Below, piece by piece: positions 1 through 57,905 of a stretch of DNA of 64,000 bases. The DNA lies in NCBI GenBank assembly GCA_946699065.1, contig CAMPDV010000138.1, forward strand, positions 124,001-188,000, in the 5' to 3' direction. Below the pieces are notes generated by a model. The model had not been told where the DNA came from. It saw only the letters and a program-made list of their open reading frames with translations, and did no database searches. Origin of the DNA: Loxodes magnus (lineage: Eukaryota; Ciliophora; Karyorelictea; Loxodida; Loxodidae). How positions within the stretch are numbered: the first letter of the stretch is position 1; every line of letters starts with the position of its first letter. Made by a program: the position numbers and the translations under genes.

Positions 1-1200
1 TTTGAATAGAGTCCTTTCTTTCTCATCACATAATGAAATTGCTTTTCCCTTTTTTTCCGAACTCAATCTTCCAGTTCTTCCAATTCTGTGCAAGTATTTT
101 TCCTTTATTTTAGGTAATTAAAAATTGATGACATTATTGACAAAAAGAAGATCTAGCCCACGACCAGCCAAATCAGTAGCGAGTAAAACTTAATGATCTC
201 CGTTCTAAAAGCTCTGCATGTTTTCAAATCTTTTAGCTTGCGATATATCACCATGGACTTCGCTAAAGCTTCATTCGGGTTTTATTTATTCCAATAGTTT
301 TTTAATTTGAAAGCATTTTTTCTTAGAGTTAAAAAATACGATTGATTTCTTCTTAATAACTTGATAAAGAGCAACCTCTCTAGGTATATTTTTGATTCTT
401 ACCATAAGTTATTGGATATCAGGTATAGCTTAATTTTCTATTATCTCAGGATCTTTTACGAACTTGTTAAATGATTTATCGATTGTTGCTGAAAATAGCA
501 AGACTTATGCTGCATGCTAATCTTTTATTTAATCAATTATGATCTGAAGATCTTCGTAGAATCCACTTTCGAGAAGCTTATCTGCTTCATCGAGTACTAT
601 GTGATAGATTTTTTAAAGCACAGGTATTTCATTAAACCAATTTTTGAAAATTAATCCAAGTCTACCAGGAGTTCCAATGATAAAGCACTATTTTTCTTAC
701 TGCTGTAATATTTCCTTCTATTTTTCAGGCTCAGTATTGCCTCCAATTATAAATAGTTACTCTAAACCTCCACCCAAGTTGTTTAATAGCTATTTAAGCA
801 TTTCAAAGCATTATTTACCCAACTCTCTAGTAGGAGTAATAATAAGAGTGCAAATCTATTTATCTTCATTTTCCCTGTTAGTAAACATTTTTTGTATTAT
901 AGGTAGAAGAAATGCATTTGTTTTTCCACTGCCAGTAACTGCATTTGCAATTAAATCTTTTCCCTTAAGGATAATAGGAATAGCTTACTACTAAATTTAG
1001 GTAGGATAGTAGAAATTTAAGTCTTCACATACTTTACTTATTTTTCTAGACAGGCCTAACTGCATAAATGAGCAAATGTTTATGGGTTTTGCAACTTTCC
1101 TTTTCTTAACTATTTACCCACTATTCTTAACTTTACTCGAGAAGCTCCAACTCTATAAGTCTTCCTATAATTCTTAGAAGAATTTAGCCTTAGAAGACAT
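1..1200 (-). CDS. DEAD-box ATP-dependent RNA helicase (3' end beyond window)
   Basis: ATP-driven RNA unwinding enzyme of helicase superfamily 2, probably in RNA processing or ribosome assembly. Read with UAA/UAG as Gln, 400 codons are open from ATG at 1200 to the window edge. Motifs in order: Q-motif region with PTQIQ near residue 72; motif I AVTGSGKT at 87-94; PTREL (Ia); GTPGR (Ib); DEAD at 204-207; SAT at 237-239; [10 protein letters not shown] (V); HRIGRTGR (VI) at 371-378. All key residues are intact, so it should be active. One in-frame UGA (context [14 protein letters not shown]) is read as Trp. The order and the motif IV-V region resemble the Drs1/DDX27-like group, but I cannot assign the ortholog. 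The neighbour ATG101 lies about 0.7 kb upstream on the same strand. Single copy in this window; no intron seen. Confidence 0.95.
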
Positions 1201-1918
1201 TTTAATTAATTTAATTCCCTCAACTTAAATCTATAAATCCTTCTTTAATTTAAATCACTTCCAGAACTCAATTTTTGTTTTTATTACCTTTTAATTTTAA
1301 CCTATCAACTTCTACAGAACTATAGCGATAAGGCTCTACTATATAAAGTCTATTTCTGCCTTTTCTAGATAAAAAATCCTTCAATTATTAAAGCGTATTA
1401 TCTTGTTTATTGATTTTAGATAATATTAGGAGTAGATTGAATCCTTCAAGGCGCAAAAATTGAAAAGATATAATTTTAAATATATATTTATTTATTTAAA
1501 GGAAATAAGAAATAAATTAGTTTTCTAGCTTAATTTAGAGAAATATCATCTTAAATTATAAAAATCAGACTGAAGAAAAGAAAAATTTACATTAAATAGA
1601 CTACTTAAATAAATATTTTATAGCAATGCACTTTAAATAAACTTGGAAGGAAGAGTTAATAAGTAATTACAGCTTAATAAATTTCAATTTTATTAGAATT
1701 GTTAAGATGCTGATTTATTCTAAATGAAGATGCAAGTTATTATAAAATAGTAAAAACAATAGAAAGAATTGCTTTTCTTTTTTTCTTAATTTTTTTACTA
1801 TAAAGTTAAGGGTATTTTAGAAGGTAAAAAGGTTTGGAACAAATATAGCTAACATTTTAACTTTAAAAGAGAAAGAAATAATTCTATAATATATTTAAAT
1901 TGTTCAGCAGACAACGAA
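1201..1918. other. Intergenic region between helicase and ATG101
   Basis: AT-rich spacer holding the 5' flank of the helicase and the 3' flank of ATG101, both on the minus strand. I see no coding stretch, RNA gene or repeat shared with the rest of the window. Confidence 0.6.
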
Positions 1919-5900: not shown

Positions 5901-8039
5901 AAATTTTATATGAATAAAATAAATTGTAATAATTTCTTAATCTAAAATTTTAAATAAATTTAATATTAAAGAATAACAAACTAAAAATTTCAGAAATTAC
6001 TAACTATCTGCCCTGGCTTAAGAGATAAAGAAAAAAGTTAAAAATTTAAATATAAAAATTTTAATTATTTTTTTCTTAGTGTTCTTAAAAGAAAGGATTA
6101 AAGCAAAAATGTTTTATTGCTATGGTTAATAAGAAAAAATAAAAAGAAAATAGAAATTATATATATTAAATAATTAAAATTTAAGTTAATTAATACTAAG
6201 ATTATCTTAAATTGTCTATAAATAACTTATCAAAGCCATCAAATTCTTTTAAAATAATTACAATAGAATCAATTATTTAAATATAACTAAAGCATCCTTT
6301 TAGATAAAATATTTAAAAGTTAAATAAAATTTAAATAAATAGATAAAGATTTTAACCTTTTTAATTATCATTAAAGGATATAAAATTTTATTAATTTTCT
6401 TTTTTTTTAATAGATTTTTAATTATTTCAAGTATTTGTTTTAACAACATCCCACTAATTAAAAAATACAATTTTTTATATTTTTATTTTAGCGGATTAAT
6501 TTAAGTCTATTTTTATAAACATTTCTAAGAAAAAAAGATATAAGTCTAATTTTCTAATATTATGATATTTTATATTTATTAATTAAAAAAATGAAAAAAA
6601 AAATTTAAAATTACAGTTCATTATTTCTATTTATTGGTCTTTTAAAAAATAAAAAATAACTATATACTCACATAGAAAATAATTAAATCATTAAGAATTT
6701 AAAGATAAACATGAGTTTGAACTTTATATTTAAATACCTATTTCAGTATTTCTAAGGAAGTTCTATTTGAGTTGCAATAAATTAAATTTAAATTTTCTAA
6801 ACATAATTGTAAATAAAATTTCTTATTATGATTAAGTTTCTAAATTAAAAATTATGAAATTTAGTTAGACAGAAAAGGACTAATAATTAAAAAATGAAAA
6901 TTATTAAATTTCTCTAATTACTCTATTTATTGTAATCTACTACCTTAATTAAATTTAAATAAATTTAAAATATATTCATTTAGTTAATATTTTCTTCTTA
7001 ATTTAACTAAATATTTGCTAGAAAAAACAATTTTAGGTATGCTAATATAATTAAATAATTATGAACGCTTTAATTAAGAAAGTGTGTTATGATTTAAGCA
7101 ATATGAAATTAAAATTTTCCTGGTGAAATTAAAATTATAAAATTTAATGGATATTAAAGAATTCTTCATAGATAAAGGAAGATAACTACAAACTGAGTTT
7201 TTAACTATAATATACAACAAACAATAATTGAATTTGAAAGCTTTTGTAGATTATAATATTAAAATAATTAGCTAGAAGCTTTTTGAAGTAGTTATTTTAA
7301 ATAAAGTGAATAATTATCTTAACTTTGCTCTAATAACCTTTTTTGCCCTTTCTATAACTAATTTATGATAAAAATAAAAAATAAATAATAAATAGCACTA
7401 AAAATATTTTAATAATAATAAATAAACTCGAAATAAAAACTTTACAAACTAAGAAATTTTGGATTGCTATTCCAAATGAGAGAAAATCTCTAGATAAAAG
7501 ATGAAGTTAAATGTAGATTTTAGTTTAGGAAAAATAAGAATTTCTAAATTTTATATAGTTAAATTATCTTAAGGTTTAAAAAAAATTAAATATCTAAATG
7601 AGAAATAATCAGATTTTATAGTATGGATTTTTCCTTGAAAATAGTTCTTTTAATTTGTCCTATAAATATATCTGATACAGATGGTTAAGCCTATAATTCA
7701 AAACTAAATAATTGAAAAATAATTATATTTATAAAAAATTTTATAATTGCTTAGTTATCAACTCATCTTATTAATATTTAAAATCACAATTAAGGCATAT
7801 ATTACTCCTATAATTTAGCAAAAATTATAAAATAATTACTCTTCAAACCTTTATCTAAGATATGAATGCTTACGATTTTTAGATAAAAAATAGAAATTTT
7901 TACAATATTAAGGATTTTTTTATTTTATGTTTCTTTAAAAAATTTTAGAATTTATTTTTTATTATAAGTTGCTTTTTTAGTTTAATGAATAAATAAATTC
8001 TTAAGATTCCTTTTAATTCTTTAATAGAGTTAGAGTTTT

Positions 8040-11000
8040 TCAAATTAGTTTGTCGTAAAAGACACCTTCACAGATTCCTCCTTTTATTAGCTTTCTTGCT
8101 CTTTGTTCGAACTCTCTTGGATTTTGCTTTATCAAATCATAAATATTTTTATTTATAAAGTCTTCAATATCCTAGTCAATAAACAATTATTTCAAGACTT
8201 CATAAATTTAAACAAGAGTTGTTTTATAACTCCAGTTTTTTAGCAAACTAAGACCTATCTCTCCTTATGAAGAAATACAAGGATGATAAACTCTATTCAA
8301 GCATTTAACTTTAAAAGGAACTTCATAAATATTTTCCGAGTCAATCACAATGATAAAATTAACTTTAGCTCCATGCCACAAAGATTTCTAATCTTTCACT
8401 TCTATTTACAATAACAAGCTTTAAATTTAATTTTTGAAACCATTGCTATCTCTTTAGCAGATTCTTTCAAGTTCATCACATTCCCTATTTCATCTTTTCT
8501 ATCTTTCCTCTTTCGTTGCTTTATATTAAACGGATTGTAAATTTTGCTATATTTTGAGTTTATAAACAAATCCATCTTCTTCAATTTTAAGTTTGTTTTT
8601 ATCAATAACTTATTTTTCTTATTTAAGTGGATTTATTAATTTTTTATTGATGTCAAAGGATGGAGGATTATATGAAGAAAATCTATCGCAAAGAATGCAA
8701 ATTATTTTATCTTTAATGGTATTATCAGGCAACTATTCTTTTATTTCAATAAGATAGCTCGTTATACATCGATTGTAGCAATCTGCACATTTGTTTCTAC
8801 TTATTTAAGCTTGAAGGATATTTTCCTCTAGTTCAATATAATTTCAGCATCCTGTACAGAAAATCTTCATTTTTTTACCATATAGAAATAACGAATTTGA
8901 ACCCCAACTCGCTTAAGTACTCAAACGTAAAATTGACTGCTTTCCATTTTAAATGCAGATTTAGCAGAATGTAATTGCCTTGTTACTCATATTAAGGTCG
9001 CAGTTAATGTTTTTACAACTTAGGCAAGAAATCTTCGTATCATTATAGCATTTTAAGCAGAAAGAGATGCTACCTTCTACCATTTCAGCTGTCAAAATAT
9101 CGAATTATTAGCAATTTTCGCATTTTAATTGAAGGTTTGCTAGTTAGATATTTACTGTTTTTCTTGCTAATTCTTCGATGTCTGGCATAATATGCTTTTA
9201 TGGAATCTAATAAACTTAAAGACAGTTTCTATTCAAGCATTATACTTTCTATTTAGTGCACTACATATATTTCAACTTATTTTCTTTTTTGCACTTCTGA
9301 TTGAGACAATCGAATAAGTCAATAATATCAGGCTAGTTAAAATATTCATTATCGAATACTTCTTTAAAAGCTTAGTAATTATCTTTAAGTTTAATGAATT
9401 TTTATTTATAATAATTTAGACACTGGCCTATAACACTTTAACTATTTACTTTTCTTTCTAATATATCATTTAGTTTTTCTTCTAATCCTGCTCTCAAATT
9501 AGCATCTCCTAATTCTCTATCAACTTCTCTTAATGCATGGATTAAAGTGACACCTAATTTTGTAGGTATATAAATTCTATTTGGATCTTATACTGTAACT
9601 AAATTATTTTCTTACAGCTTTTCTAATTAGCTACTTATTCAACCTTCAGATCCAATTTTTTTGCTTTTTAATACTTATAAAAGTTCACTTTCACTATAGA
9701 ATTTAGGAGCATTTTAATCACATTCTATTCCTGGTTTTATACTGATTATTTTGAGATTATCATGCTATGTAATTGTATGAATTCTACTAACTCTATGAGA
9801 AAAATCTTTCTAAAAGCATCCGAAAACTGAAGCTCCTTACTAAATCTTATCATAACCTCTTCCTCAGAATTCTACACCCTAAATAAATGTCTTTATTATA
9901 GTCCTTCCCTCAACCATTTATTCAGCCAGACTTGCAAAAAGATGATATACTATTAAGCAGTATAATTCGAAAATTTTTTTCCTTTAATGAACTTATTAAA
10001 ATATCTACATAAATTACTATCCATCCAAAGCTTCTAAAGGAATAATAGGCATTAAATCACCTAATTATCCATATTCGTATTACTAATTCCTTAAAATTTA
10101 GACATCTATTCTTCATTACTAGGATTAAAAAAAGGCATCTAAAAGTTCTTCATAGTTAAAGTATTTATTATGATTTTTAGCAAATGATATAGGATTTGTA
10201 ATAATTCCTTATTAATAAAGAATCTCAGCGTATCTTTAAGTATCAGCCACTTTAAGTCTCAAATATTTAGAGGCTTCTATAATTAAATCGTATGTATTAA
10301 GAGCCATTGGTCTTCTTCTATTATTTAACTCTTCCTGAATAATATCTGTTATAGGATATGCATCATTGATATGTTCTTGGAAATTTTTTCTTTCAATAAA
10401 TCTCATAAGTTCATCTTCACTATCAAATTAGACTTAAGAATATAAGCAGAGCCTTACTTTATTTGATGCTTAAACTTCAATTATCACGTAATATTTATAA
10501 AAATTATCTTTAGCTTTTATTTAGTCATATTTATCAACAATTAGTGCTAGAGCAGGAGTTAAAACAGGGCCAAACTTTAAAGGTCTTCCAGGAAGATTCA
10601 TTATATCTGAATATCTATTTAAAAGCTAACTAAATGCTATTCCAATACGTAAATCAACTTCTCTTCTAGCATTGTAATAATTGATTCAATTATTTCTTAA
10701 TCCGTGTATTTAATACTCTTCATGTCTTAACACTACTTCCAAATAGTATGAGGAAACTGTTAAAGTTTTCATTCTTCAAAAATCGAAATTTTATTTTCCC
10801 ATTTAATTCTATTAAACAACTTCGAGTATCTAACTACAAATTGACTCATTTTCTATATTATTATCCAACATAAACAAAACTTAATTAGCATCTTTAGTTA
10901 CATTCTCGATATTTTATATCTCTTATCTACTTTAGTTACTTTAAAGAATTTAAATGACGTCCTCATTAAAAAATTCAATTTCCTCATAGTCTGAAAGGAA

Positions 11001-11201
11001 TCCACGGAATTATAGTTTATACAGATGTCTTTCTACATAAACAATAGTAAGATGAGTATCATAGTCTCATAAATTACCAACTAGCTCAATGTTTTAATTA
11101 TATCTACTCTAACGTATAAATTAAAATCCAAAAGAATATTCAAAGCACTCTCTTAATGCTAGGGCGCAGTCTTGAGTTGAGCAAAAGACCACTGTATTCA
11201 T
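8040..11201 (-). CDS. Topoisomerase III-beta-like / UBC12-like E2 fusion protein, catalytic residues lost (copy 1)
   Basis: 1,053 codons from ATG at 11201 to TGA at 8040, with no intron. The TOPRIM-like domain starts MNTVVFCST: the Glu of the AEKP motif (residue 9) is Thr, and the DxDxxGEN motif reads DNNIENES at 113-120, losing the second Asp. ARREVDLRIG and FGPVLTPAL follow as in TOP3B. The active-site block SYPRTET reads TNPISFA: residue 336, Tyr336 in human TOP3B, is Asn, and the next Arg is Ile. The IYIPTKLGVTLIHAL block and a CxxC zinc array (about 632-880) match TOP3B closely. Residues about 900-1053 are a UBC12-type E2 fold (VYHPCISSQGEI..., ending near RKLIKGG); the Cys of GNVCLNIL is Gly983. 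No Met lies between the zinc array and the E2 domain, so it is not a separate gene. Eight in-frame UGA read as Trp. Probably a pseudoenzyme or scaffold; function unknown. Confidence 0.9.
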
Positions 11202-12870
11202 TTTTATAATTAAATCTATTTGACTAACTTAAATAGAAAACTTTAAAAACCTATCAATAAATAATCGCTTTTAATTAAATATTTAAGCTGAAAATATGAA
11301 ATGGAAGATTCTCTAAATAAATGCGATATTTTACATTTACTTTCAGATCTTATGAAATAACTACAATATTCTAGCTATTTGATTCTATTTAATCAAATCT
11401 TCATTTGCAAGGTCTAAAAATTTACTATTTTTGGAAAATATTTCATTTTCTTAGATAGTATATTCAAATATATTTGAGATCTTATTACCCTAAAATAAAT
11501 TAATATAGCACATCTAACAATCCATATAATTTTTTACGTTTTTATGTATTACTAAAATTAAGAAAGAAGCAATAATTAAAGCTTTTATAAAATATCTAGA
11601 TTTCATGTGAGTTAAGTGACTAGATTTTAATAAGTAAAAACCTTTAACTTTTAGTATATTAAGGATATTTCTCTTTCTTATAAAGTTATTTAGCTAAACA
11701 TTAATTTAGTTTTCTTTTTTCATTATCATTTACTTTTCATCTATTCTTTTCGAATTGCAATGCTCTATTAATTTATAAGCATCTTTCTTTTAATTTAATA
11801 TATAAAAAATATAATTCAATCATCATTATCAACAATAGCTCTAAACTCATTAATCTTAATATTTAGAAGTATAACTTAAATTAATTTTTATAATTAAGAG
11901 AAGATAATAAATTAACTTAGATTTATCTATAAAAATATGAAGAAAAAATTAAAAATAAAGATAGGATCATATTAGCTTAAAGGTATACTTAGATTATACT
12001 AATTAAGTCAATAAGATCTAATTAATAATTTATCTTTTATATTTAACAAATATTAATAACAATAGCTTCCAATTTTATTTTATTCCTTCTTATGAGAAAA
12101 CAACTGAATAGCCAAAACTCTCTCTATTTTATAATTAAAAAGTAGTTTTTCTTGCTATTTCCAAATTCTTTTCATATAAAAAGGATTTAATAATAATAAA
12201 AATGATTATACTTGTTCATTAATAAATAAATGAATGTAATGATTTGATAGTAAATTAAATAGACTAAGAAAAGTAGAATCTAAATAAAGCATAAAAATCT
12301 CACATCAACATTTTAATAAAGCATTTTATACTTTCTTTTAGCAAATAAGTAATTTCCCCTTTATTAATAGATCTTGCTATTTAACTTTTATTTATGAATC
12401 ATATGCTCTTTATGACTTCATCAAATATATTTTTAATTTTCTTAAGCAAACTTAATAACCAATTGAAGGAAGCTTTAAGGTTCCATTATCTAAATAAAAA
12501 TTAGAAAACTTAATAAAAATAATTGTTTACAGTTTACTTTAACTAATTATTAGCATATATCCATAAAGTATCTAATAGACATAAAGGGTTGTTTTAATCA
12601 ATATATTGTAATAATAATTAATAAGCGTGAATATAAAGAATCAAAAGAATATGAAAATAATAATAAAATATTTTATTAGATATTTCACACTATTATTTAA
12701 ATTTAAAGCAAAGCTTCTTATAAGATTGCATTATACTAAATTAAAATTATAGTAAAAGATAAACTAGAAAATCTTATTTTTATTTATAAATAAATATCTA
12801 ATTTTTTAAAATTTTAAGTTATTTTAGTAATTTTATCTTTTAATCAGTTTATTAGTTTAATTTTAATGAA
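10975..12870. repeat. Source block of recent duplication (copy at 53,370-55,255)
   Basis: The first roughly 77 codons of the TOP3B-UBC12 gene plus 1.67 kb of its upstream flank recur at 53,370-55,255 with only a few differences per hundred bases. The copy leaves this homology at a run of attttaa and continues with sequence matching 14,640 onward, so 12,870-14,640 is missing in the copy. Confidence 0.85.
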
Positions 12871-13424
12871 TCAGATAAAAATAAAAAAAGTATATAATAA
12901 AGAGACTTGAAAATTTAAATATTAATGTGTTTGATATAGGCTCTTATTAAATTAAAAATCCTTAAAGTAAGTTATTGTATACATGGTTATTAAGATCTTA
13001 TTAACTTTAATTTAAATTATTCCTATATTTACTTAATTTTTTAATATTCATATTTTATCTATAATTTTTCTTGATTTTATGATACAATTATGTAAAGTTT
13101 TTATTTATTTCAGAACAAAGTATCACTTCTTTTTTTTAATTTTAGATAAAAATATATAAAAAGGAGTATTGTAAAGAAATTTAAAGAAGCACATTCTAAA
13201 ATTTTTTATTTTATTTACAATAAATCTAAATTTTCTCTAAATAGTTTGTCATATAAGTTATTTTCATAGATCTTCCTTTTATTTGTTCTATTGTACTTTT
13301 TTCTACAATTTTTAGCTTTTTTTATATATTTTTATTGTAAATTATTTAAAAATCATAATTATTATTTAACTGTATCGTCATTCTTATACTTATTTCTTTT
13401 TTTTAATTTAAATAAGGAAAAAAA
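11202..13424. other. AT-rich region upstream of TOP3B-UBC12 copy 1
   Basis: Non-coding region that holds the 5' flank of the fusion gene. It recurs almost unchanged at 53,600-55,255 and in diverged form at 27,545-29,700 and downstream of 42,590. I see no gene or promoter element I can name. Confidence 0.55.
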
Positions 13425-14330: not shown

Positions 14331-14829
14331 TTTAGTAATTTAATTTAAATAAGCAAATATTTTTTAGTATTATTAGCTAGTAAATTAAAATTTCTCATTG
14401 TCAAGAATATTTCTAAATATAAGAAATTTAGGAACAAGTTATATTATGAGTATAGTGCTTTTATAAATACTCTTAAAATAAATAAATGAGTCCTATTTAT
14501 TTAAATAGTAAAATTTTATGAAGCCTATTTTTACTTAAATATTTACAATTAAAATACATTCATTATTTTTAAATATATACCTTTTTTATAGTTAACTTAA
14601 GAAATAAAAAAAAATTAAAATTTGTCAGTTAATATTTATAATTTTAAGCAAGCTAAAAATAAAAAATAATAAAGAGAATAAAATTAAATTAAATTTAGAG
14701 ATTATTAATCTTCCTACTAGAAACTTTTAGTCTTTATGGTGGTTTTTAATTTATAGTTATAACTGTAAATTTTTATTAAAAAGTAAGTTGCTAAGTTAAT
14801 CATTAATCATTAAAATAACTGTTCGACTT

Positions 14830-15654
14830 CCGGCTTAATTGAAATTTTAATTTATAAAATCTACGTTCCTGCATGCACGTTCATTGTATTGCTCTTTTTC
14901 TTGACTTCTCTCTTTTGAATAATCTGAGTTGAGAATTTTTTTCCAGATTTTCCCATTTCCCGATGGAAAGAATTTCGTCGCTCGATACTTCAGTAGCTAT
15001 TAGTTAACATTTCTCCAGATATTCATTCTTATTTTTTTCTATTGGGGACATTTCCGCCATAAATGTCAAGTACTGTTGCAAATGTAGCGTTTTTTTCTTG
15101 CTCTAGGAAATGTCTTTTCTTGTTTCTCTATTTCCATCTTCATGATTTATCAAATCCTTACTTGATATAAACATCTCTTCCTTCTGAGAGTTTAATCCTC
15201 TTCGAGTTTTTTTATGTTTCTAATAAGTTGATAAATCAGCTGTTTCATTTCTAAGTGTTCATTTATTCTATTTCAGTATTATCTTAATCAAAGGTAATAG
15301 AATCTATATTGAATTATTGTAATTTACCTTCTTCGTTTATTATTTATTTTTTCAGTTATTATTTTTATCGATTCAGTTGAGAGGTCTCTTTTTTCAGTTT
15401 TCAATGGAGCTATGTTGACTTTATGTTCTGAATTTTTATCTCAGTTCTTACTTGTCCTTCGATGGAAGAGATCCTCTTTATTTTAATTTGTAGGAGTTAG
15501 TATTTTTTATAAGTTCTTCTAATCTATTAGATAGTTCTGGTTATTTTTATTAAGAAAATCGTTAACTTGAAGGAGACGTGGTGAGAATATGTGCTACTGA
15601 TTTTCTCTTTTGTTCTGAGGAGATGGTATAAAAACTCTTCTTGAAGCCAGCCAT
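14830..15654 (-). pseudogene. ORF1-type gag-like relic (frameshifted)
   Basis: Starts MAGFKKSFYTISS at 15654, the family N-terminus, followed by a Gln/Ser-rich stretch and coiled-coil-like sequence. The coding signal changes frame several times. One change is a single-base deletion near 15,192 relative to the copy at 55.8 kb, which keeps a longer open stretch (LEEELNSQKEEMF). No zinc knuckle remains. The matching position in the right duplication unit (about 30,180-30,240) is uninterrupted, so this is an insertion. The relic ends in a GC-richer segment around 14,820-14,880. Confidence 0.6.
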
Positions 15655-15699
15655 TTTATATTATAAGTTGTTAAGTAATAAAATAAATAAAAAACTTTA

Positions 15700-16690
15700 A
15701 TTTTTAATTTGATAATATAAAATAAAACTTATATGAAATTAAAATAAAGTAGCTATAATATTCTATTTAGTTCAAAAATACACATTTTTTTAATTTAAAA
15801 GCTTCTCTTTAAAAATAGATCATATTTTCTTATTAATCTATCCTTAATGAAATTTTCTACTTTTTTTCTGCCATTCTTGATAGAAAAGCTTCCTTTTTCA
15901 AAATAGAAGCAGCTAATTACTAAGTTTTAGTTATTTATTATACTTTATTAGTAAATTAAAGGATTATAAAATAAAGATATATATTTAAATCTCTAATTTA
16001 GAGTGTGTAACAAATATCATTTAAAGATTAAAAAATGTTTTATTAAAGTTAAAATTTTCCATATTTTATGAAATAAGAAAAATAATTTAAGCAGTGCATA
16101 TATAACACAAAATTAATACTAAAAATTCGAAGAAAATTGTTGGTAAAAATCTTAAAATTTAAAATCTAAATTAAGATTATTTTCTTAGTAAATATTCTAA
16201 AATTAAATAAAAAGAATACTAAAATCCTTTGTGTTTAAAGCTTAAAACTTATTTCTCATATATTTTCTATTCTCTTTTGAATTGCTATCTAATTTTATTT
16301 TATCAGCTAAGAATTTCTTGTACTTAAAATAAATTAATGATGCTAAATACTTTTAAGGAAATTAAGTTTAATTTTATTTAATAAATAAGGCACTCTATAT
16401 TCTTTAATGAACTAATATTTTATAAAACTTTATTATCTTATCATGTATGTAGCTTAATAAGACTGTCTGTTTTTTACAATTTTAAATAAGCATAAGCTTA
16501 ACCTTATATCTTAAAATATTAATGGTTACTAAGTATTTTATTGTATTCTTTAAAAAACCAAAATTAATCTTCTAGGTGATAAGATTAAATATTAAAGAAA
16601 TCTTACTATTAAATCTAGCAATTTAATTTTTAATTTTTTCACATAATTATTTTCTTCCCAAATATTATTATTATTATGAATATATATATT
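15700..16690. other. AT-rich non-coding stretch
   Basis: Part of the old duplication (matches about 30,250-31,130) and of the recent one (matches 56,300-57,290). No gene seen. Confidence 0.5.
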
Positions 16691-16723
16691 TTTAATTAGG
16701 AATAAGCAATACTCCAACTGAGA

Positions 16724-17036
16724 CTAACTTAACACAAGTACTAGGAAGTTCTTCAGAAGCAACAAACTGAACAAAAATTCTGGCAGGAGCCAAGAGGAAA
16801 AAACTGGAGGCATTGAGTAACGGTTGTTGAAAGCTGCCAGAAGACTAGGTCTCTTGGAGCATGACTTCGAATATGCCCTATTAGAAGACAGAATTCCCAA
16901 AGGAGTGAAGCACTGGAGGAAACTTTTAAGGAGTAATTTTATTAATTTTATAAAAAATAAATTTAAAGAGCTGCCCACCATCGAGAGAGCTACACGCTCT
17001 ATAATAGAGTTAATTAATTTTAACTAAAAAAGTTTT
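16724..17036 (+). pseudogene. C-terminal fragment of a retroelement protein
   Basis: The frame starting near 16,824 reads as a basic, helical protein tail (motifs LLEHDFEYALL and KGVKHWRKLLRS). The sequence before it is coding-like in another frame (EQKFWQEPRGKNW), so the piece is 5'-truncated and frameshifted. It runs directly into the structured RNA that also follows the reverse-transcriptase relic at 40.5 kb, so it is probably the 3' end of a LINE-type element. The copy at 57.3-57.6 kb differs by only a few bases. Confidence 0.5.
16967..17000 (+). repeat. Terminal-type hairpin
   Basis: An AGAGC/GCTCT stem encloses an imperfect inner stem and is followed by ATAAT. It belongs to the same hairpin family as 36,290, 45,414, 47,178, 47,444 and 57,562. 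Confidence 0.6.
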
Positions 17037-17320
17037 TGAACCGGAAACTCCTTTCCGATTGCACGACCCGACGCTCTCTTTTTATGGAATAACGGGGATA
17101 TCCTGTTGTACTCCAGGCACAGCTGCTAGGGAGCTCCATCGCTGTGAGCAGCCGGGTTTCAAGCCCCTACCAAGAGCTGATAATCTCAAAGAAAGCGTTC
17201 CCTTCAGAAAATGACTCTGACCAGGGACTTTCTCAACGACAGGAAAGGAACTTGTTCCTAGCCATAAAACTAGAAAGTGTGGTCATGAAGGTCATTTTCA
17301 GCTCCCACCATTTTTTCAAT
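17037..17320 (+). ncRNA. Structured RNA at LINE 3' end (copy A)
   Basis: GC-richer, strongly conserved segment, also at 40,556-40,850 and 57,603-57,905. Stems differ in sequence but keep pairing between copies: CGGAAA/TTTCCG here (17,042-17,057) against ACTGCAA/TTGCAGT at 40,569-40,586. AACGGG/CCTGTT needs a G-U pair on the plus strand, which favours this orientation. Indels of one base between copies argue against a protein. It follows retroelement coding sequence in every case, so I infer a 3' UTR structure that the reverse transcriptase recognises. No match to an RNA family I know. Confidence 0.65.
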
Positions 17321-17359
17321 TATCTCTATAATCGAGTTTATTTATTTGTTTATTTATGA

Positions 17360-18269
17360 ATAAAAGTGTTTGGCCTTCTTGTAGGTATTTCAACCTATTT
17401 CTAACCTGCCTCCATAATGTACCAGAGGCTAAAATCAAATTTTCGTACTCCAACCACTGTTCTGAATTGCTTATTCTTAAAGTCTCAAATTCCTCTTCCA
17501 TTACTAATTATCTTTTTTCTTTTATATATTCCCAAGAACGTTCATCCATAACTGTTTCTATTCTTAATTAGTTTGAACCACTGCTACCTCTTCCTTTTTT
17601 CCTACTGTTGTCTTTGCTTTTGCCAGTAACTCTGTTTGAAATTTAGAAATTTACTTTCTTCACAAGTGTTCTCTTGAACCACAGTAGTAGCAGGATTTCA
17701 CTTCTCCCTTGTATAAAGTCTTGTTAACTTCAATTTCTTCGATCTCCATTTTATCTTATTTCTTCTTGATTCAATTTACTTTCGCAATTTCTGCTGATTT
17801 TCTTATTAGCTGTGTTAATTTACCATCAAGTTCTAAGTATTTTTAATCTTGATTCTGGAATTAGTTGTTTTGACTCTGAGATATGTTCCAGAAAGCGATT
17901 AGATCTCTTTCATGAGTCTTGATTCGATTTCTCTTGTTTATTTAGATTCTCTATTAGTTTATCATTTTTCTTTTTCAGCTTCCTGATCTAGAGGTTTATT
18001 TTGATGAGCTATTCCGTACTCTTCTAACTAGAAGGAATGAACTCTGAGACCTCCTAGCGAAGAGCAGACTTCATCTGCTAATTCGATTTCTCTTATGAGG
18101 TTAGAGTTATTGTATGTGCTATCTTCTGAGCTAGTTTCTTCTCCTCTCCAGGTTATTAGGATTAAGAAAAAGGTTAGTGTTGAGAGAAAGAAGACTATCC
18201 AAGATTGGATTAAGGTTTTTTTTCCAACTTTTTAGAGGTGGTGTAGAAATCTCTTTTGAATCCTTCTAT
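17360..18269 (-). pseudogene. ORF1-type gag-like gene, inverted copy (start codon lost)
   Basis: Reverse complement of the element at 21,192-22,103. The conserved N-terminus EGFKRDFYTTSKK is present, but the first codon is ATA instead of ATG. A Gln/Ser-rich region, a coiled coil (QLIKINLQ...) and the FWNIS motif (TGG here) follow, then a knuckle CYYCGSREHLWRK in which W is encoded by UGA and the last Cys is replaced. The 3' tail contains TAAA repeats (17,335-17,357). Scattered single-base indels break the frame. Confidence 0.7.
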
Positions 18270-18660
18270 TTTATATTTAAATCTATATTTGTTTAGTTAT
18301 TTTCGGTAAATATATATTTAAATATCTTTTTATAATTAAAGAAAATAATTCAAATCCGTTCAATTAAGCAAATGAAGCTATATAATTATTTTCTCTTTTT
18401 TAACTACCTAGCTTATCAAATGCAATGCTATTATTATAAATAATTTAATCTTCTTTAATTTTATAGTTTTCTTATTAATGTGGTATAGATTAAATTTGAA
18501 AAAAGAACATAAAGTTAAATTTATTTTGAAAATACTTTTTAATAATAATTTTTTACTTTTTATTAAAAATTTTATTATCAAGTAAGTTATTATATTAGTT
18601 TAGCACTATATCTAATTAAAATGCTTATATGCTTCATTCTTTAGACTTACACGAATATAA
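18270..18660. other. Non-coding spacer inside the inverted pair
   Basis: AT-rich spacer between two minus-strand ORF1 relics. No coding stretch seen. Confidence 0.5.
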
Positions 18661-19490
18661 AACTAAATGTTTGGTGTTCTTGGAAATTTTTCAAACTCTT
18701 TTCCACCAACCTCTTATATTGTTCTAGAGACTAAATATAAACATTTAAAAGTCTCTACAACTCTTCTCCTTGCTATGCATACTTTCACTGAGATATCCTT
18801 TCGTCTAGATAATGATTGATAACTCATCTTGTATGTTTTCCAAATTTGTTGCAATATAATCTTTCTCTTTTAGTTTTAGTTGTTGTTGTATCTTCTTTTA
18901 GTAGTTCCAGTATTCTTATTTAAATATTTGAATTTCTAACATCTAGAGTTACAATAATAACATATTTTTGCTTCTCGTTTTGGTTTAAATCTTGAGTTAT
19001 TTTCTCCTTCTATTATCATTGGATAATTCCTTTATTCTTTCAGTTCCATTTAACGCTTCAATTTCACTATTTTTCTTCTATTTTTTCTAACTTGTTGATC
19101 AGATCTTTTTTCTTCTATTGATAGTTTTGAGATAACTGTTCTAGTCTTGTGAAATATTTCAAAATTCATTAAGGGCTCTTTCCTAGGTAATGAGTCTCAA
19201 TCTTATTTCCTCTGCAAGTTCAAGTTTTTCCGTTAACTTATTATTGTCTTCTTCAATTTTTTTTATCTCTTCTTGGAGGTCCAGCGCCACTTTAATCAGT
19301 TAATCATAGCTTATTTGCTACTATGTGGTGAGATCCGAGACTTCTGAGCGCATTATATTTTTATCCTATTTTCTAGGCTTTCCTTCAGAGGTGAGAGACT
19401 CATCCTGTTGAGTGACCTTATTGCTACCCTTTTCCTGATCCTAGCTTTTCTAGGATGTTGTTAACTTTTTTTGGAACTACAAAGAATCCT
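18660..19490 (-). pseudogene. Diverged ORF1-type coiled-coil relic
   Basis: N-terminus ISGFFVVP near 19,490 matches the family signature with ATG changed to ATA, then shifts frame. The coiled coil (QLIKVALDLQEEIKK, then LELAEEIRLRLI) leads into ALNEFWNISQDQN, where Trp is TGA (19,159-19,161); relatives at 36,868 and 62,120 have TGG at this site. A degraded knuckle CYYCNSRC follows. This copy lacks a piece kept in the duplicate (59.2-60.05 kb), where the knuckle reads CYYCNSRMYLWKRC with TGG. Confidence 0.65.
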
Positions 19491-20580
19491 GATATCTTTT
19501 TATTTCTATACTTATGCTTCTATTCTTATTTTAAAATATTAAACTCCTAACTTTTCCAATTTTATCTTACCTGTATAAAAATTTTATGCTTATTTATTTT
19601 CTATTATTGGTTTTTTAATTTTTAACCAAAAGTTGCTCAACAACTTAAAAATTTCAAGTTTATTAAATTCCTTTATGCGAGATTGGATAATCTCTTATAT
19701 TAAATGTTTGCAAATCTAGAAAAATTAAAAAAGAAAGGAGAATAATGATTTATATAATTCCTTGGCTTTGATAATTATAAGGATATAATACTTTTATTTT
19801 AAACTGAAAGAAATATTATCATTCTTTGTTTAAAATGCCTTGTATATTCTAAGACTACTAACTTTTCTTTTTAAAGTTTATTAATATTTTCAGCTTTAAA
19901 GAACTCAATATTTTTAATGAAGCTACTAAGATTAAAGACAGATAAATCACACTTAAATTAATTGCTAAACTAGCAAAAATATCCGACTCTACCAAGCATT
20001 TAAAAAAATGCAATTTAGATTCTCAAAGGTATATGAAAAAAGCAGTTGTTAAAATCTTAATTTTATAAAGGAAATTAAATAAATTTTTTCTCTATATAAA
20101 GCATTAAACACGTAAGTACAAACAATTTAAACTTGATAAAATTCCTATTATTTCTCATTTATCGTAAGACAATGATTAGAAGTATCTATCAAGCAAAAAA
20201 TAATAACTTTAATTATATATAGTAGATAAATCTTTAACTAATAAAAGTTATGCTTATTTAAATTTAACCTTTTCTTTTACAGAGTTTTATAAAAACATTA
20301 CTATAAATATAAAATAAATTATTTTATAATAGCTTTAACTATATAATTTTCATATAATCGAACATTTATTTGTTTTTATTCTATAATTGTAGTTAAAATT
20401 AGTATAATTTCTGCTATAAGAAATGATTGAAAACAATTTTAATATTTTACTTAATTTATATGAAATAAATTACATTTTTAAAACTAAAGATATAATTTAA
20501 ATATTTAGGAGGAAAATAAAATTCCCAGAAATTACCTATCCAAAACTAAATAAATAATATAGAAAATAGATAATCAGTAT
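19491..20580. other. AT-rich non-coding stretch
   Basis: No coding stretch seen. Nearly identical to 60,060-61,127. Confidence 0.5.
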
Positions 20581-21075
20581 ATGCAAACTCAGAACTTAAA
20601 GCTACAACTTTCGGAAAGATCTTCAAGACAGATATTACCTTATCGAGAATCCTCATTGCATCGTGGAGAATTGGACAAGTTCCAACATATTTTTAATTAA
20701 AATTGTTACATAGATTAAGAGAATGGTTAATAGCAAAGATTGAATAAGGTGATATAAGAAAATCAATAGCCTATGATTAAAATTATATCAACTAATTCCC
20801 AAAAATAAGATAGAATACATAGATTTACAAATAAAAATTTTCAACAAAACGCTGCTCAAAAGTAGATTGGAATTATTAGAAATGAAAAATGATGAATGAT
20901 TGAAAAGTGATGAATCTAAGGAAGAGGAAGTAAAAACCAAGAAAATAGGGATGAGAACGAGGAAGAAAATGAATAACAAGAAGAGCTAAAAGAGTAAGTG
21001 GAAGAATAGAAGGAATAAATTGATAACTAAGATGATCAAGCTGAAGTATAAGATGAAAATGATGGCTCGAGATGA
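20581..21075 (+). CDS. Unrecognised protein with acidic Gln-rich tail (copy A)
   Basis: 165 codons from ATG 20581 to TGA 21073-21075. The open frame also extends upstream to about 20,521 without a further stop. The first two thirds are Gln-rich and polar (e.g. LSERSSRQILPYRESSLH). The last third alternates Glu with Gln (UAA/UAG) and Asp, a pattern that makes sense only under the reassigned code. Two UGA-UGA pairs lie in the middle (EK-UGA-UGA-MIEK-UGA-UGA). They may be Trp-Trp, or the first may be a stop. The copy at 61,128-61,622 has the same length, with the second pair changed to UGA-CGA. It lies between inverted ORF1 elements. No domain recognised. Confidence 0.5.
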
Positions 21076-21191
21076 AAAGCTTATTAATAATTCTATAGTA
21101 TCTTTAATTGAAGGAAGTAATTCTAAAAATTAATAATTTTACAAGACTATTTTAGCTTAGCTTAACTTTGGGAGGAAAATAAAAAATATAA

Positions 21192-22103: not shown

Positions 22104-22109
22104 AAATAA

Positions 22110-25100
22110 TAATAAATATAAATTTAATGAATGCTAACTTTAAGAATAAAATTTTGATAATTTAATTATAAATTTAAATTTCTTAGAATAGTTTAAATTA
22201 TTTAATCATAAGCAAATCTATGAAAAAATAGATTTTATATAAAAATCTGAAACCAGAAATTTAATTCTTAGTAGACATAGCTTTAAATAAAAATTAATTT
22301 AAAGTTAAAAATTAAAAAGCATATTGCTATATTACTAAGGATATAAATTAGTTATGAAATAAATAAATAAAAGATAATAACTAAAAATATAATTGAAATA
22401 TATTTACACTTTTTATTTTCAAAATAAATAAATAAAAGTGTTGCACTACTATAATTGATAAAAGATGTGTTAAAAGAAGATAAATTTATTTAAATAGAAT
22501 AAAATTTAAGTTAATTAATATTAAGATTATCTTCAATTTTTATTAAATATGACTTACCAAAGCTTTCAATTTTATCAAATAATTATAGTAAATTTTACAT
22601 TTTAGATATAACTATTATATCCTTTTAGCTCTTATGTTTAAAATTAAATTTTAAAATAAAAATCAAAGACCAAGAAATTCCAAATTTTAAACATCACTAA
22701 AGAGTATAAATTAAATAAATTCATTTTTAAATTATTTTATGCTTAGTTGGATCGAATACTCCTTAGACATCTCACTTAATTCATAAAACTGATAAAATAT
22801 AAAAAAATTTAGATTTTAGATGTTTAAATTATATAGATTTGTATAAACATTTCTAAGAAGAATTAAGATGCTTAATTATTTTGATTTATAATATTTAATT
22901 TATTTAAACTGAACTAAAGATATTATTTAGAAAAATTTACAATTTTAATTTCTTTCAATTATCCTTATAAAACAATTTTATCTAAAGACTCTCAATGAAG
23001 ATAAATAAATAAGAAATTAATTAACTTTAAATAAAGCTTTTGATAGCTTATAAGCTGAAAGCATCTTAATTTAGGTTATAATAAAGATTAATTTTTTTTA
23101 ATTAATTAGATTGAATTTTACTTTAGTAGCCTTAAAAATAGATCTTCTGGACTAACCTGTATAAATAAATTTTGAGAGATGATGAATTGCTAAATTTAAA
23201 TTTATAATTGAATTAAGATAGAAAATAGCTTGTAATTTAAAAGATTTAAACTATTAAATTTATTTTCTAGTTGTTTATAATTAATCTTATTCCTATAGAA
23301 ATGAGGTATTAATTATTGAAATAAATTTTAAAATATTAAGGTTTTAAAATATTTTGCTATATAATATTAGATGCTTGCTAGAAGGAACAATTTAGACATG
23401 CTAAAGCAAAGCAAATAGATCTTAATTTTAGTTAAGTTAATTAAAAAAAATTAACCCTGCATGCATTTTAATTTTTTCTTAGTAAGAAATAAAATAGAGA
23501 TTGCTGTGAATATATAGAGCTTTAAATGGTAAATGAATCTGTTTTAAAATTAAAATTTTAACTATAAACTCTTATGCTTAGCAGAGTTAAACTTTTATTA
23601 GACTAGATAGGTTCTAATACAAATTAAGAGAAACTAGAAGACTTAAAACTAGCTTCTTATAAATTAAAAATTATTTAACTAAATTTGATCTAATGTCCTT
23701 CTTTTTCATTCTAAAAAACTTATTCATAAAATAAATAAAAATAACCACTAATAAAATTATAAAAATAGATAATCTGAAAGCTAAAATTTTGCAAATTGAA
23801 TGATTTTAGGATTTATGATTAAAATCAGAGAAATATACCAGATAAAAGTTAAGAATTTAAATAAGTTATTAAAAATAGATAAAACAATTATTAAGATTTA
23901 ATGTGCTAGCTAATTTTAAGGAATTTTAAAATTAAAATATTTAATTTAAGCGAGAAATCTTCGGATTTCTAAATATGATGAAAATAATTTATGTTTGAAA
24001 CTGCTTTTTCTAAGTTTATAACACTAATATTTAAATCTATAATATAATCTAAATTATGCAGAGGTTTATATTTATTTCTAAAGATTTTATACTTAATTTA
24101 GTTATCAACGTCTTTCATTAGTTTATCCTTGTCATATTTAAATTCTCGTTTATCTAGATGAAATTAAGCTTATTTATTTAAAATAACCTTCAAAATTTTT
24201 TCTGAAATGACTGCTCATTATTATATTAAAATATAGGAATTTTAATACTATTAGTTGACTTTACATTAAAATTAACTATATAAATTAAAGAATTTGAAAT
24301 TAAACTTTATTATTATGAATTTTACATAGTTTTAATGAATAAATTCTTGAGATTCCATTTAATTCTTTTAATAAGTTAGAGGTTTTCAAATTAGTTTGTC
24401 GTAGAAGACACCTTCACAGATTCCTCCATTTATTAGCTTTCTTGCTCTTTTTTCGAACTCTTTTGGATTTTGCTTTATCAAATCATAAATATTTTTATTT
24501 ATAAAGTCTTCAATATCCTAGTCAATAAACAATTATTTCAAGGCTTCATAAATTTAAACAAGAGTTGTTTTATAACTCCAGTTTTTTAGCAAACTAAGAC
24601 CTATCTCTCCTTATGAAGAAATGCAAGGATGATAAACTCTATTAAAACAGCTAACTTTGAAAGGAACTTCATAAATATTTTCCTAGTCAATCGCAATGAT
24701 AAAATTAACTTTAGCTCCATATCACAAAGATTTCTAATCTTTCACTTCTATTTACAATAACAAACTTTAAGTTTAATTTTTGAAACCATTGCTATCTTTT
24801 TAGCAGATTCTTTCAAGTTCATCACATTCCCTATTTCATCTTTTCTATCTTTCCTCTTTCGTTGGCTTATATTAAACAGATTGAGTATTTTATATTTAAA
24901 GTTTATAAACAAATCCATCTTCTTCAATTTTAAGCTTTTTTTTATCAATAACTTATTCTTCTTATTTAAGTGGATTTATTATTTTTTTATTGATGTCAAA
25001 GGGTGGATGATTATATGAAGAAAATCCACTACAACGAAAGCAAATTATATTATCTTTAATGGTATTATCAGGTTATTATTCTTTTATTTCAAGAAGGTAA

Positions 25101-28100
25101 CTAATTATACATTCATTATAGCAGTCTGCACATTTTTTTCTACTTATTTAAGCTCGAACGATATTTTCCTTTAGTTCAATATAATTTCAACATCCTGCAC
25201 AGAAAATCTTTATTTTTTTACCATATAGAAATAACGGATTTGAATCTCAGCTTTCTTATGTACTCAAGCGTAAAAATGATTGTTTTCCATTTTAAATACA
25301 GGGTTCGCAGAATGTAATTATCTTATTATTTATATTAAGATCACATTCAAAGTTTTTGCATGTTAAACAAGAAATCTTCGAATCATTATAGCATTTTAAG
25401 CAGAAAGAGATGCTACCTTCTACCATTTCAGCTGTCAAAATATCGAATTATTAGCAATTTTCGCATTTTAATTGAAGGTTTGCTAGTTAGATATTTACTG
25501 TTTTTCTTGCTAATTCTTCAATGTCTGGCATAATATGCTTTTATGGAATCTAATAAACTTAAAGACAGTTTTAATTCAAGCATTATATTTTCTATTTAGT
25601 GCACTACATATATTTCAACTTCTTTTCTTTTTTGCACTTCTGATTGAGACAATCGAATAAGTCAATAATATCAGGCTAGTTAAAATATTCATTATCGAAT
25701 ACTTCTTTAAAAGCTTAGTAATTATCTCTAAGTTTAATTAATTTTTATTTATAATAATTTAGACACTGATCTATAACACTTTAACTATTTGCTTGCCTTT
25801 CTAATATATCATATAGTTTTTCTTCTAATCCTGCTCTCAAATTAGCATCTCCTAATTCTCTATCAACTTCTCTTAATGCATGGATTAAAGTGACACCTAA
25901 TTTTGTAGGTATATAAATTCTATTTGGATCTTATACTGTAACTAAATTATTTTCTTACAGCTTTTCTAATTAGCTACTTATTCAACCTTCAGATCCAATT
26001 TTTTTGCTTTTTAATACTTATAAAAGTTCACTTTCACTATAGAATTTAGGAGCATTTTAATCACATTCTATTCCTGGTTTTATACTGATTATTTTGAGAT
26101 TATCATGCTATGTAATTGTATGAATTCTACTAACTCTATGAGAAAAATCTTTCTAAAAGCATCCGAAAACTGAAGCTCCTTACTAAATCTTATCATAACC
26201 TCTTCCTCAGAATTCTACACCCTAAATAAATGTCTTTATTATAGTCCTTCCCTCGACCATTTATTCAGCCAGACTTGCAAAAAGATGATATACTATTAAG
26301 CTGTATAATTCGAAAATTTTTTTCCTTTAATGAACTTATTAAAATATCTACATAAATTACTATTCATCCAAAGCTTCTAAAGGAATAATAGGCATTAAAT
26401 CACCTAATTATCCATATTCGTATTACTAATTCCTTAAAATTTAGACATCTATTCTTCATTACTAGGATTAAAAAAAGGCATCTAAAAGTTCTTCATAGTT
26501 AAAATATTTATTATGATTTTTAGCAAATGATATAGGATTTGTAATAATTCCTTATTAATAAAGAATCTCAGCGTATCTTTAAGTATCAGCCACTTTAAGT
26601 CTCAAATATTTAGAGGCTTCAATAATTAAATCGTATGTATTAAGAGCCATTGGTCTTCTTCTATTATTTAACTCTTCCTGAATAATATCTGTTATAGGAT
26701 ATGCATCATTGATATGTTCTTGGAAATTTTTTCTTTCAATAAATCTCATAAGTTCATCTTCACTATCAAATTAGACTTAAGAATATAAGCAGAGCCTTAC
26801 TTCATTTGATGCTTAAACTTCAATTATCACGTAATATTTATAAAAATTATCTTTAGCTTTTATTTAGTCATATTTATCAACAATTAGTGCTAGAGCAGGA
26901 GTTAAAACAGGGCCAAACTTTAAAGGTCTTCCAGGAAGATTCATTATATCTGAATATCTATTTAAAAGCTAACTAAATGCTATTCCAATACGTAAATCAA
27001 CTTTTCTTCTAGCATCGTAATAATTGATTCAATTATTTCTTAATCCGTGTATTTAATACTCTTCATGTCTTAACACTACTTCCAAATAGTATGAGGAAAC
27101 TGTTAAAGTTTTCATTCTTCAAAAATCAAAATTTTATTTTCCCATTTAATTCTATTAAACAACTTCGAGTATCTAACTACAAATTGACTCATTTTCTATA
27201 TTATTATCCAGCATAAACAAAATTTAGTTAGCATCTTTAGTTACATTCCCGATATTTTATATCTCTTATCTACTTTAGTTACTTTAAGGAATTTAAATGG
27301 CATCCTCATTAAAAAATTCTATTTCCTCATAGTCTGAAAGGAATCCACGGAATTATAGTTTATATAGATGTCTTTCTACATAAATAATAGTAAGATTTGT
27401 TTTTTTTCCTCACAATATACCTTCTAATTTAATATTTTAATTTTGATCTTCCTAATTTATTCATTAAAATTTAAAAGAATTTTCAAAACATTTTCTCAAC
27501 GCTAAGGAGCAGTCTTGAGTTGAGCAAAAGACCACTGTTTTCATTTTTATAATTAAATCTATTTGAACTAACTTAAATAGTAAAATTTAAAATATCATCA
27601 ATTAATAGTTGCTTCTCAATTAAATATTTTAAAATTTCAAATAATAGATTTGAAAAACTTTCTATTATAATATATTTATTCTTAACTTTTATTTTTAGAT
27701 AGTGTAATTTACTACTAAATTCTAACTGCTTTATTCATTTCACGAAAGCTTTATTAAAAGTCTCTAAAATTAAAATTTGTTTATAAGCTTGTATAGCTAA
27801 TATAAATATACCTAGAATTTATATCCATCAAGTTATATACCATATCATTTTATTTTCATACAATCTTCTTTCTTATTTTATTTATTCAAAACATTGTAAG
27901 AAATAATAATTAAAACTTTTAGAACAATTTCTAGATTATATCCTAGTTTAAGAGATTTCATTTTAGAAATTCAAAAATTTAAATAATTTTAAACTTATTT
28001 AAGGATATTCTTCTTTCTTGAGAAATTGTATTATCAAAAATATTAATTATAATTTCTCTTTTTGCTAATTTGCTATTCGTCTATATCAAGTAATTTTCTA

Positions 28101-42480: not shown

Positions 42481-42588
42481 TTTCCGAAACTAAAGCTTAG
42501 AACTTTAAAGAAACTAGAAATTATTTTAGAAGCATTATTTTAATGCTATAGAGCAGCTTTTTGTTGAGCAAAAAACCACTGTTTACAT
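42480..42588 (-). pseudogene. N-terminal relic of the TOP3B-UBC12 gene
   Basis: ATG 42588 begins MQTVVFCSTKSCSIALKQCF, clearly the start of the fusion protein (MKTVVFCSTQDC...). Similarity fades after about 30 codons. Upstream sequence (42,600-43,000) aligns with the diverged 5' flanks at 11.2 and 27.6 kb, so this is what remains of another copy of the whole unit. Confidence 0.75.
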
Positions 42589-52450: not shown

Positions 52451-52488
52451 TAAGTATATTATTATTATTATTAATTAAAGGAAGATTT

Positions 52489-53365: not shown

Positions 53366-53369
53366 TGCT

Positions 53370-53599
53370 AATTCTATTTCCTCATAGTTTGAAAGAAATC
53401 CTGGAAATTATAGTTTATATAGATGTCTTTCTACATAAATAATAGTAAGATGAGTATCATAGTCTCATAAATTACCATCTAGCTCAATGTTTTAGTTATA
53501 TCTACTCTAACGTATAAATTAAAATCCAAAAGAATATTCAAAGCATTCTCTTAATGCTAAGGCGCAGTCTTGAGTTGAGCAAAAGACCACTGTTTTCAT
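53370..53599 (-). pseudogene. N-terminal fragment of the TOP3B-UBC12 gene
   Basis: ATG 53599, MKTVVFCSTQDCALALRECF and on to LSNYEEIE (about 76 codons), then the junction with the receptor fragment. It is closest to copy 1 (8,040-11,201) except for Lys at position 2. Confidence 0.85.
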
Positions 53600-57309: not shown

Positions 57310-57602
57310 TCCAACTGAGACTAACTTAACACAAGTACTAGGAAGTTCTTCAGAAGCAACAAACTGAACAAAAATTCTGGCAGGAGCCAAGAGGAAAAAA
57401 CTGGAGGCATTGAGTAACGGTTGTTGAAAGCTGCCAGAAGACTAGGTCTCTTGGAGCATGACTTCGACTATGCCCTATTAGAAGACAGAATTCCCAAAGG
57501 AGTGAAGCGCTGGAGGAAACTTTTAAGGAGAAATTATTAACTTTATAAAAAATAAATTTAAAGAGCTGCCCACCATCGAGAGAGCTACACGCTCTATAAT
57601 AG
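57310..57602 (+). pseudogene. C-terminal retroelement fragment, duplicate of 16,724-17,036
   Basis: Same basic helical tail (LLEHDFDYALL), with a small deletion near 57,532 that breaks the frame earlier than in the left copy. The terminal-type hairpin is at 57,562-57,595. Confidence 0.5.
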
Positions 57603-57905
57603 AGTTAATTAATTTCAACTAAAAAAGTTTTTGAACCGGAAACTCCTTTCCGATTGCACGACCCGACGCTCTCTTTTTATGGAATAACGGGGATATCCAG
57701 TTGTGCTCCAGGCACAGCTGCTAGGGAGCTCCATCGCTATGAGCAGCCGGGTTTCAAGCCCCTACCAAGAACTGATAATCTCAAAGAAAGCGTTCCCTTC
57801 AGAAAATGACTCTGACAAGGGACTTTCTCAACGACAGGAAAGGAACTTGTTCCTAGCCATAAAACTAGAAAGTGTGGTCATGAAGGTCATTTTCAGCTCC
57901 CACTA
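57603..57905 (+). ncRNA. Structured RNA at LINE 3' end (copy B)
   Basis: Duplicate of 17,037-17,320. Here the stem GTGC/GCAC (57,703-57,715) is perfect, where the left copy has a mismatch; the stem AACGGG/CCAGTT has gained one mismatch. Confidence 0.65.

Follow-up and report, generated by a model that had tools for sequence, protein, structure and literature searches.

Introduction

UEV-type E2 variants (Mms2/UEV1, the UEV of TSG101) have the E2 fold without the catalytic Cys and serve as protein docking modules. In UBC12 (UBE2M), an N-terminal peptide with a free N-terminus docks to E1 and DCN1. The C-terminal domain of the topoisomerase TOP3B contacts DNA and TDRD3. The active centre of human TOP3B consists of residues for the catalytic metal (E9, D117, D119 and H387), residues for the structural metal (E340, D386 and D511), and Y336, R338 and K10, and R338 touches the scissile phosphate, according to excerpts of PMC11743793. 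Human TOP3B-Y336F binds DNA and RNA without cleaving them and has been used for structures, and removal of the C-terminal tail weakens binding of both (excerpts of PMC9363430 and PMC11743793).

In the karyorelict ciliate Loxodes magnus UGA encodes Trp and is also the only stop, introns are mostly ≤25 bp, and the published MAC assembly of 706 Mbp is repeat-rich (excerpts of PMC11441545). Here we describe a gene family from this genome in which a TOP3B-like and a UBC12-like protein are joined.

Results

Gene structure and genetic code

In a 64,000-nucleotide stretch of the L. magnus genome (the window), a single frame on the minus strand runs from an ATG at 11201 to a TGA at 8040 under genetic code table 27 and encodes 1053 aa. 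This agrees with the initial annotation, which had placed one open frame at 8040..11201. The features of this gene, copy A, are:

8040..11201, minus strand: copy A, the full fusion of a TOP3B-like and a UBC12-like part, encoding P0001 of 1053 aa and ending in the TGA of 8040-8042
10695..11201, minus strand: TOPRIM-equivalent stretch, residues 1-169, with T9 for Glu9, Q10 for Lys10 and D113/N115 for Asp117/Asp119
9402..10694, minus strand: type IA topoisomerase gate (Topoisom_bac), residues 170-600
10188..10196, minus strand: former active site, N336-P337-I338 replacing Tyr-Pro-Arg
8688..9308, minus strand: cysteine/zinc array, residues 632-838
8517..8681, minus strand: linker, residues 841-895, in frame in 11/11 intact copies
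8043..8516, minus strand: UBC12-type E2 domain, residues 896-1053
8277..8279, minus strand: Cys975 codon; each of the 11 intact copies has HPC for HPN (alignment of 7 distinct rows with the own UBC12)
8253..8255, minus strand: codon of Gly983 (GGT in the coding direction), the position of the E2 catalytic Cys

Under table 6, in which UGA is a stop, copy A has eight internal stops; table 27 was adopted in view of the published code and of TGA/TGG exchanges at Trp codons 766, 942 and 990. Openness of the frame depends on the code: with all three usual stops readable every frame is open, and constraint was therefore tested instead.

In copy A, Pfam's Topoisom_bac (E 4.1e-47) matched residues 170-591, and UQ_con (E 8.6e-15) residues 910-1037. 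The solved chains nearest by sequence were TOP3B 9cah (E 7.3e-32) and UBC12 3o2u (E 6.6e-12), and a full-length fusion profile improved the TOP3B match to E 1e-38. The Pfam models Toprim and Zn_ribbon_TOP3B were absent among the P0001 matches listed up to E 10, a list from which HMMER filters discard most weak matches; across the fusions scanned (A, L012, L018, L020) the same two models gave no match, yet they find the genome's own TOP3B. The initial view of a colinear TOP3B homologue joined to a UBC12-type E2 thus stands, and in the domain search proposed with it Topoisom_bac and UQ_con were recovered; Toprim was not, and the TOPRIM assignment rests on the colinear alignment.

Copies in the window and in the genome

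When the window was compared with itself, the neighbourhood of copy A (7378-13406) matched 23728-29723, and 10972-12921 matched 53370-55301. Besides copy A it holds:

24386..27544, minus strand: copy B, a further complete fusion gene encoding 1052 aa (P0002), protein 92% identical to A
53372..53599, minus strand: copy C, first 76 codons only, ending at a duplication breakpoint near 53370
42530..42588, minus strand: relic of the 5' end of the fusion gene, some 20 codons that start with the ATG at 42588, with DNA similarity reaching the leader, to 42636

Within the gene, the alignment of copies A and B has one gap, of 3 bp; 150-bp windows lying wholly in the gene are 79-100% identical, and the two copies are nearly identical over residues ~170-600. 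In the flanks, identity is 53-66% in four downstream windows, 58-64% in the first two upstream and 60-91% further upstream, and the gap lengths are not multiples of three in 47 of 57 cases (6 of 11 downstream).

Segmental duplications give the window a mosaic structure: 14625-23400 and 55235-64000 share 95.9% identity over 8.8 kb, and 32821-33720 and 52467-53367 share 98.7% over 0.9 kb. It also contains an inverted repeat of 0.94 kb at 98.6% identity (17337-18278 / 21184-22118). A codon-usage scan gave 11 coding-like stretches, two of them copies A and B. Searched against Pfam, the other nine have no bearing on the fusion: they gave a DEAD-box helicase (16-1365, minus strand; DEAD E 7.4e-40, Helicase_C E 6.5e-28), one frataxin-like match below the cut-off and seven stretches without a match at E 0.01.

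The L. magnus genome (705,730,643 bases) gave 43 matches to copy A; the 34 regions examined cover 42 of these, the remaining one being copy C. Eleven full-length fusions are intact, each running from ATG to TGA in one frame (A, B, L011, L012-L017, L018 and L020), and they form four lineages that are 50-58% identical to each other. Copies B and C, the nine further intact copies and the E2-less sister clade described below are absent from the initial annotation or at most hinted at there. L011 lies just beyond the window (C138:188997-192155), and L012-L017 comprise five genes in a 4741-bp tandem array and one at 323 kb. The array (L012-L016, G000:C138:220490-242591, 4741-bp unit) is preceded upstream by a truncated unit with only the E2 end. 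One frame break was found in L019 and several in L029; further copies are truncated, and L032-L035, which hold the E2 alone, seem to be array units that were truncated. The remaining matches are genes with catalytic residues, relatives with only the topoisomerase part, of which some are broken, and two short fragments on C222. Topoisom_bac, run as a family search, matched 35 times, once below the cut-off, and every match lay within loci already found with copy A. Both domains were recognised in the other lineages scanned, with E values of 1.9e-42 (L012), 9.8e-23 (L018) and 1.1e-38 (L020) for Topoisom_bac and 7.3e-12, 4.2e-11 and 7.5e-9, respectively, for UQ_con.

Loss of catalytic residues

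The five losses named initially (E9T, D119N, Y336N, R338I and the E2 Cys to Gly983) are all present, with N115 of the fusion corresponding to D119. When the 11 intact fusions were aligned, E9, D119, R338, E340, H387 and D511 were kept in none, Y336 in one, K10 in six, and D117 and D386 in ten each, which amounts to 27 of 110 cells for the ten active-centre residues; E121, aligned as well and outside these ten, is kept in 10 of 11. The only Tyr336 is that of L020, a copy that lacks R338, E9, D119, E340, H387 and D511. Residue 336 (10194-10196 of the window in copy A) is Asn, Asn, Phe and Tyr across the four lineages, so that it has been altered more than once or has reverted; the Tyr of L020 may be ancestral or a reversion.

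The zinc array, which had been called full, is so for 17 of the 19 cysteines common to the genome's two TOP3B-type genes, which are invariant in 11/11 fusions, and not for the other two. Among all 484 columns common to these two genes, 86 are invariant in the seven distinct fusion rows, and against this background the conservation of the zinc cysteines has p 5e-12. The RG-rich tail of the own TOP3B is missing from the fusions, with the E2 domain in its place.

In the E2 part, the catalytic Cys position holds Gly, Ser or Asp in the intact fusions (Cys in 0/11), the HPN motif reads HPC in 11/11 (Asn in 0/11), and the canonical LFLEPNP stretch has turned LFIDQDI-like. Against solved chains the E2 profile matched UBC12 best (E 1.2e-14), followed by UBE2F (E 1.3e-9) and the next at E 4.3e-7. 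At E ≤ 0.001 the E2 domain found 21 matches in the whole genome, 19 from its own family and two UBC12 genes (C193 and C32), both with the Cys and HPN present. The fusion E2 thus appears to descend from UBC12, being nearer to it than to other E2s. The linker stands where the UBC12 N-terminus would be, and the resemblance of YKLKIQ to MIKIIPK, judged by eye, is weak. Viral contigs searched with the E2 profile for a viral source gave 35 pattern matches, of which none was confirmed. Among 150 matches listed, a long tandem array of E2 genes of equal score with 716-bp spacing was also seen at G000:C32:80272-102165.

Relatives in the same genome

The genome also has genes with catalytic residues: TOP3B (C24), TOP3A (C1, with Ser at the Asp386 site) and the UBC12 genes on C193 and C32. 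A second TOP3B-type gene (L037, G000:C8:104800-108000) keeps the Tyr and has YHKTDT for YPRTET, with Lys in place of Arg and Asp in place of Glu340, and its activity is possibly altered.

In a 17-row tree the fusions formed one clade (100/99) and the topoisomerase-only proteins another (100/100), the two being sisters apart from TOP3B; branches are long, and the depth and rooting are unsure. The tree was built without the near-copies L013-L016, L028 (missed by the end pattern), the genes with frame breaks (L019, L029, L030, L031), the fragments L039-L040 and the E2-only L032-L035. The sister clade (L021-L027, on C6, C818, C781 and C1159) has an N-terminal insertion and a Gln/Lys-rich tail that ends KHKKRKNPN in several members, and Tyr and Arg are both replaced by Asn in 7/7 rows read. 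As in the fusions, Arg338, Glu9, Glu340, His387 and Asp511 are gone in every row read. Unlike the fusions, the clade has the Gln/Lys-rich tail and no E2 match (L021 scanned), Asp119 is kept, and the gate begins about 120 residues later. Since both clades lack Arg338, Glu9, Glu340, His387 and Asp511, the topoisomerase chemistry was probably lost before the E2 was gained.

Selection

We computed dN/dS for 10 of the 21 possible pairs among the seven distinct rows. In the six between-lineage pairs, which share lineages and hence are not independent, the whole protein had a dN/dS of 0.41-0.53, pS exceeding pN (p ≤ 7.3e-14), and the E2 by itself, residues 896-1053, one of 0.33-0.51, pS again exceeding pN (p ≤ 0.0027 in 6/6). 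Within lineages the E2 was non-significant in 4/4 pairs, and the linker reached p < 0.05 in 5 of the 10 pairs. Parts of some pairs had values near or above 1: 0.89 for the gate (A-L011), 1.07 for the linker (L018-L020) and 1.62 for the zinc stretch (B-L011, where changes are few). The fusion family is evolving fast under constraint, and the substitutions between lineages are of a purifying pattern, both along the entire fusion and when the E2 is taken separately.

Discussion

The fusions are most likely a real, multi-copy and lineage-specific family of doubly inactive proteins that act as non-cleaving scaffolds, a reading to which we assign a probability of roughly 0.57. The pseudoenzyme fusion proposed in the initial annotation is well supported by the frame kept across the junction in four lineages, by purifying substitutions and by the consistent loss of the active centre, and is backed further by the presence, at other loci of this genome, of TOP3B and UBC12 genes whose catalytic residues are kept. 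Counting against the main reading are a dN/dS that lies moderately below 1, the parts of some pairs near or above 1, the non-significant E2 values within lineages, the broken and truncated copies, and the residues that survive (Tyr336 in L020, D117 and D386 in ten copies each, K10 in six). Its history may have begun with a TOP3B duplicate that lost the cleavage-religation chemistry, after which part of this pseudo-TOP3B group would have gained a C-terminal copy of UBC12, whose chemistry was lost too, and the fusion gene would then have been amplified in tandem and as dispersed copies.

If such a protein is expressed, as we infer, the gate and the zinc array could hold single-stranded or structured RNA or DNA without cleaving it. 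By analogy with TOP3B, a gate without its chemistry together with a kept zinc array suggests a nucleic-acid clamp, and binding is plausible because the Y336F mutant of human TOP3B retains the ability to bind DNA and RNA. This step is weakened by the absence of the RG-rich tail, by the loss of the phosphate-contacting R338 and by the weaker binding of the human enzyme without its tail. The pseudo-E2 might, in the manner of UEVs, serve as a dock for some ubiquitin/NEDD8-pathway protein or for a different partner; a partner of the NEDD8/cullin type, as initially suggested, is a guess from the UBC12 ancestry.

The copies might instead be decaying duplicates on their way to pseudogenes, with the constraint left over from an earlier function or produced by gene conversion within arrays. 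This is a doubtful explanation that nevertheless retains real weight, as it fits the segmental duplication, the 4741-bp tandem array, the broken (L019, L029) and truncated copies, and the near-identity of A and B over residues ~170-600 that gene conversion would be expected to give. The modest dN/dS also speaks for it. However, four lineages that share 50-58% identity have all kept the frame, start, stop, linker, 17 zinc cysteines and E2 core, dN is significantly lower than dS, and neutral decay over such a divergence would give frameshifts as are seen in the flanks.

Going beyond scaffolding, the fusion could be an adaptor that couples nucleic-acid structure to NEDD8 or ubiquitin, the TOP3B part being the clamp and the UBC12 module, as a dead dock or with Cys975 as nucleophile, recruiting or performing modifier transfer. 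We hold this elaboration to be rather unlikely.

It is improbable that the E2 remains an enzyme whose nucleophile has shifted to Cys975, where the HPN Asn used to be, from the lost Cys at 983, eight residues further on. In its favour, HPC occurs in 11/11 intact copies, in which Gly, Ser or Asp has taken the place of the old Cys, and some E2s are reported to lack a standard HPN (UBE2W, UBE2J2 and UBE2Q; excerpts of PMC9527308). Both the HPN Asn and the catalytic Cys are gone, however, LFLEPNP has become LFIDQDI-like, and many further columns are invariant, so that an invariant Cys975 proves nothing. A moved nucleophile is possible, with conservation as its sole support.

Returning to the scaffold reading, it takes the topoisomerase-like and E2 parts to be one protein. 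The linker can be aligned in all four lineages with few gaps, and the frame needs no intron. No Met occurs beyond residue 778 (A), 707 (B), 707 (L011) or 751 (L012-L017) up to the E2, and Trp904, encoded by TGA, aligns within the conserved start of the own UBC12 (KLRIQKE), which we take to be the first helix of UBC12. It follows most simply that the E2 is translated within the fusion. Two products would arise if some transcripts were read no further than the UGA at codon 904, giving a topoisomerase-like protein, and read-through or a different start supplied the E2. The double use of UGA as Trp and stop in karyorelicts would allow this (excerpts of PMC11441545), codon 904 is TGA in 7/7 distinct rows, and in L018 and L020 the linker or its vicinity does contain a Met (856, 888). 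It is nevertheless very improbable: codons 363 and 786 are likewise TGA in 7/7 rows, codon 904 lies inside the UBC12 start, in a Met-free stretch in the other lineages, and UGA acts as a stop depending on proximity to the poly-A tail (excerpts of PMC11441545), whereas the conserved end lies ~450 nt downstream of codon 904. An assembly chimera of two genes, conceivable in a repeat-rich assembly, is practically refuted by the shared junction of eleven intact copies, on two contigs and in four divergent lineages.

A literature search on topoisomerase/UBC12/UEV fusions and TOP3B pseudoenzymes found no such protein described, judged by titles, and the words 'topoisomerase' and 'ubiquitin' were not found in the main text of the L. 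magnus genome paper (PMC11441545). The component families are known; joined, doubly dead and amplified, the architecture appears new to the literature searched by title. Two unrelated enzymes have been joined, the chemistry of both has been lost, and the product has then been amplified and kept. The fusion is a natural experiment that asks what remains of TOP3B gate and zinc-array function once strand cleavage is gone, and of UBC12-fold function once thioester chemistry is gone. The sister clade lacking the E2, together with TOP3B and UBC12 genes bearing catalytic residues, builds the comparisons into one genome.

Compared with TOP3B, the fusion shares the gate domain and 17 of the 19 array cysteines and is colinear over its residues 36-848 with the own TOP3B-type genes (hhalign E 1.6e-47). 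It differs in that Arg338, Glu9, Asp119, Glu340, His387 and Asp511 are found in no intact copy and the Tyr in one of 11, and in having an E2 domain where the own TOP3B has its RG-rich tail. With UBC12 it shares the best E2-profile match, the own UBC12 genes being the sole E2s outside the family at E ≤ 0.001 in the genome, whereas the fusion E2 has no catalytic Cys, has HPC for HPN in 11/11, has no free N-terminus and is joined to a topoisomerase. UEVs share the Cys-less E2 fold and provide a model of how a dead E2 may act, and the fusion differs from them in that its matches favour UBC12.
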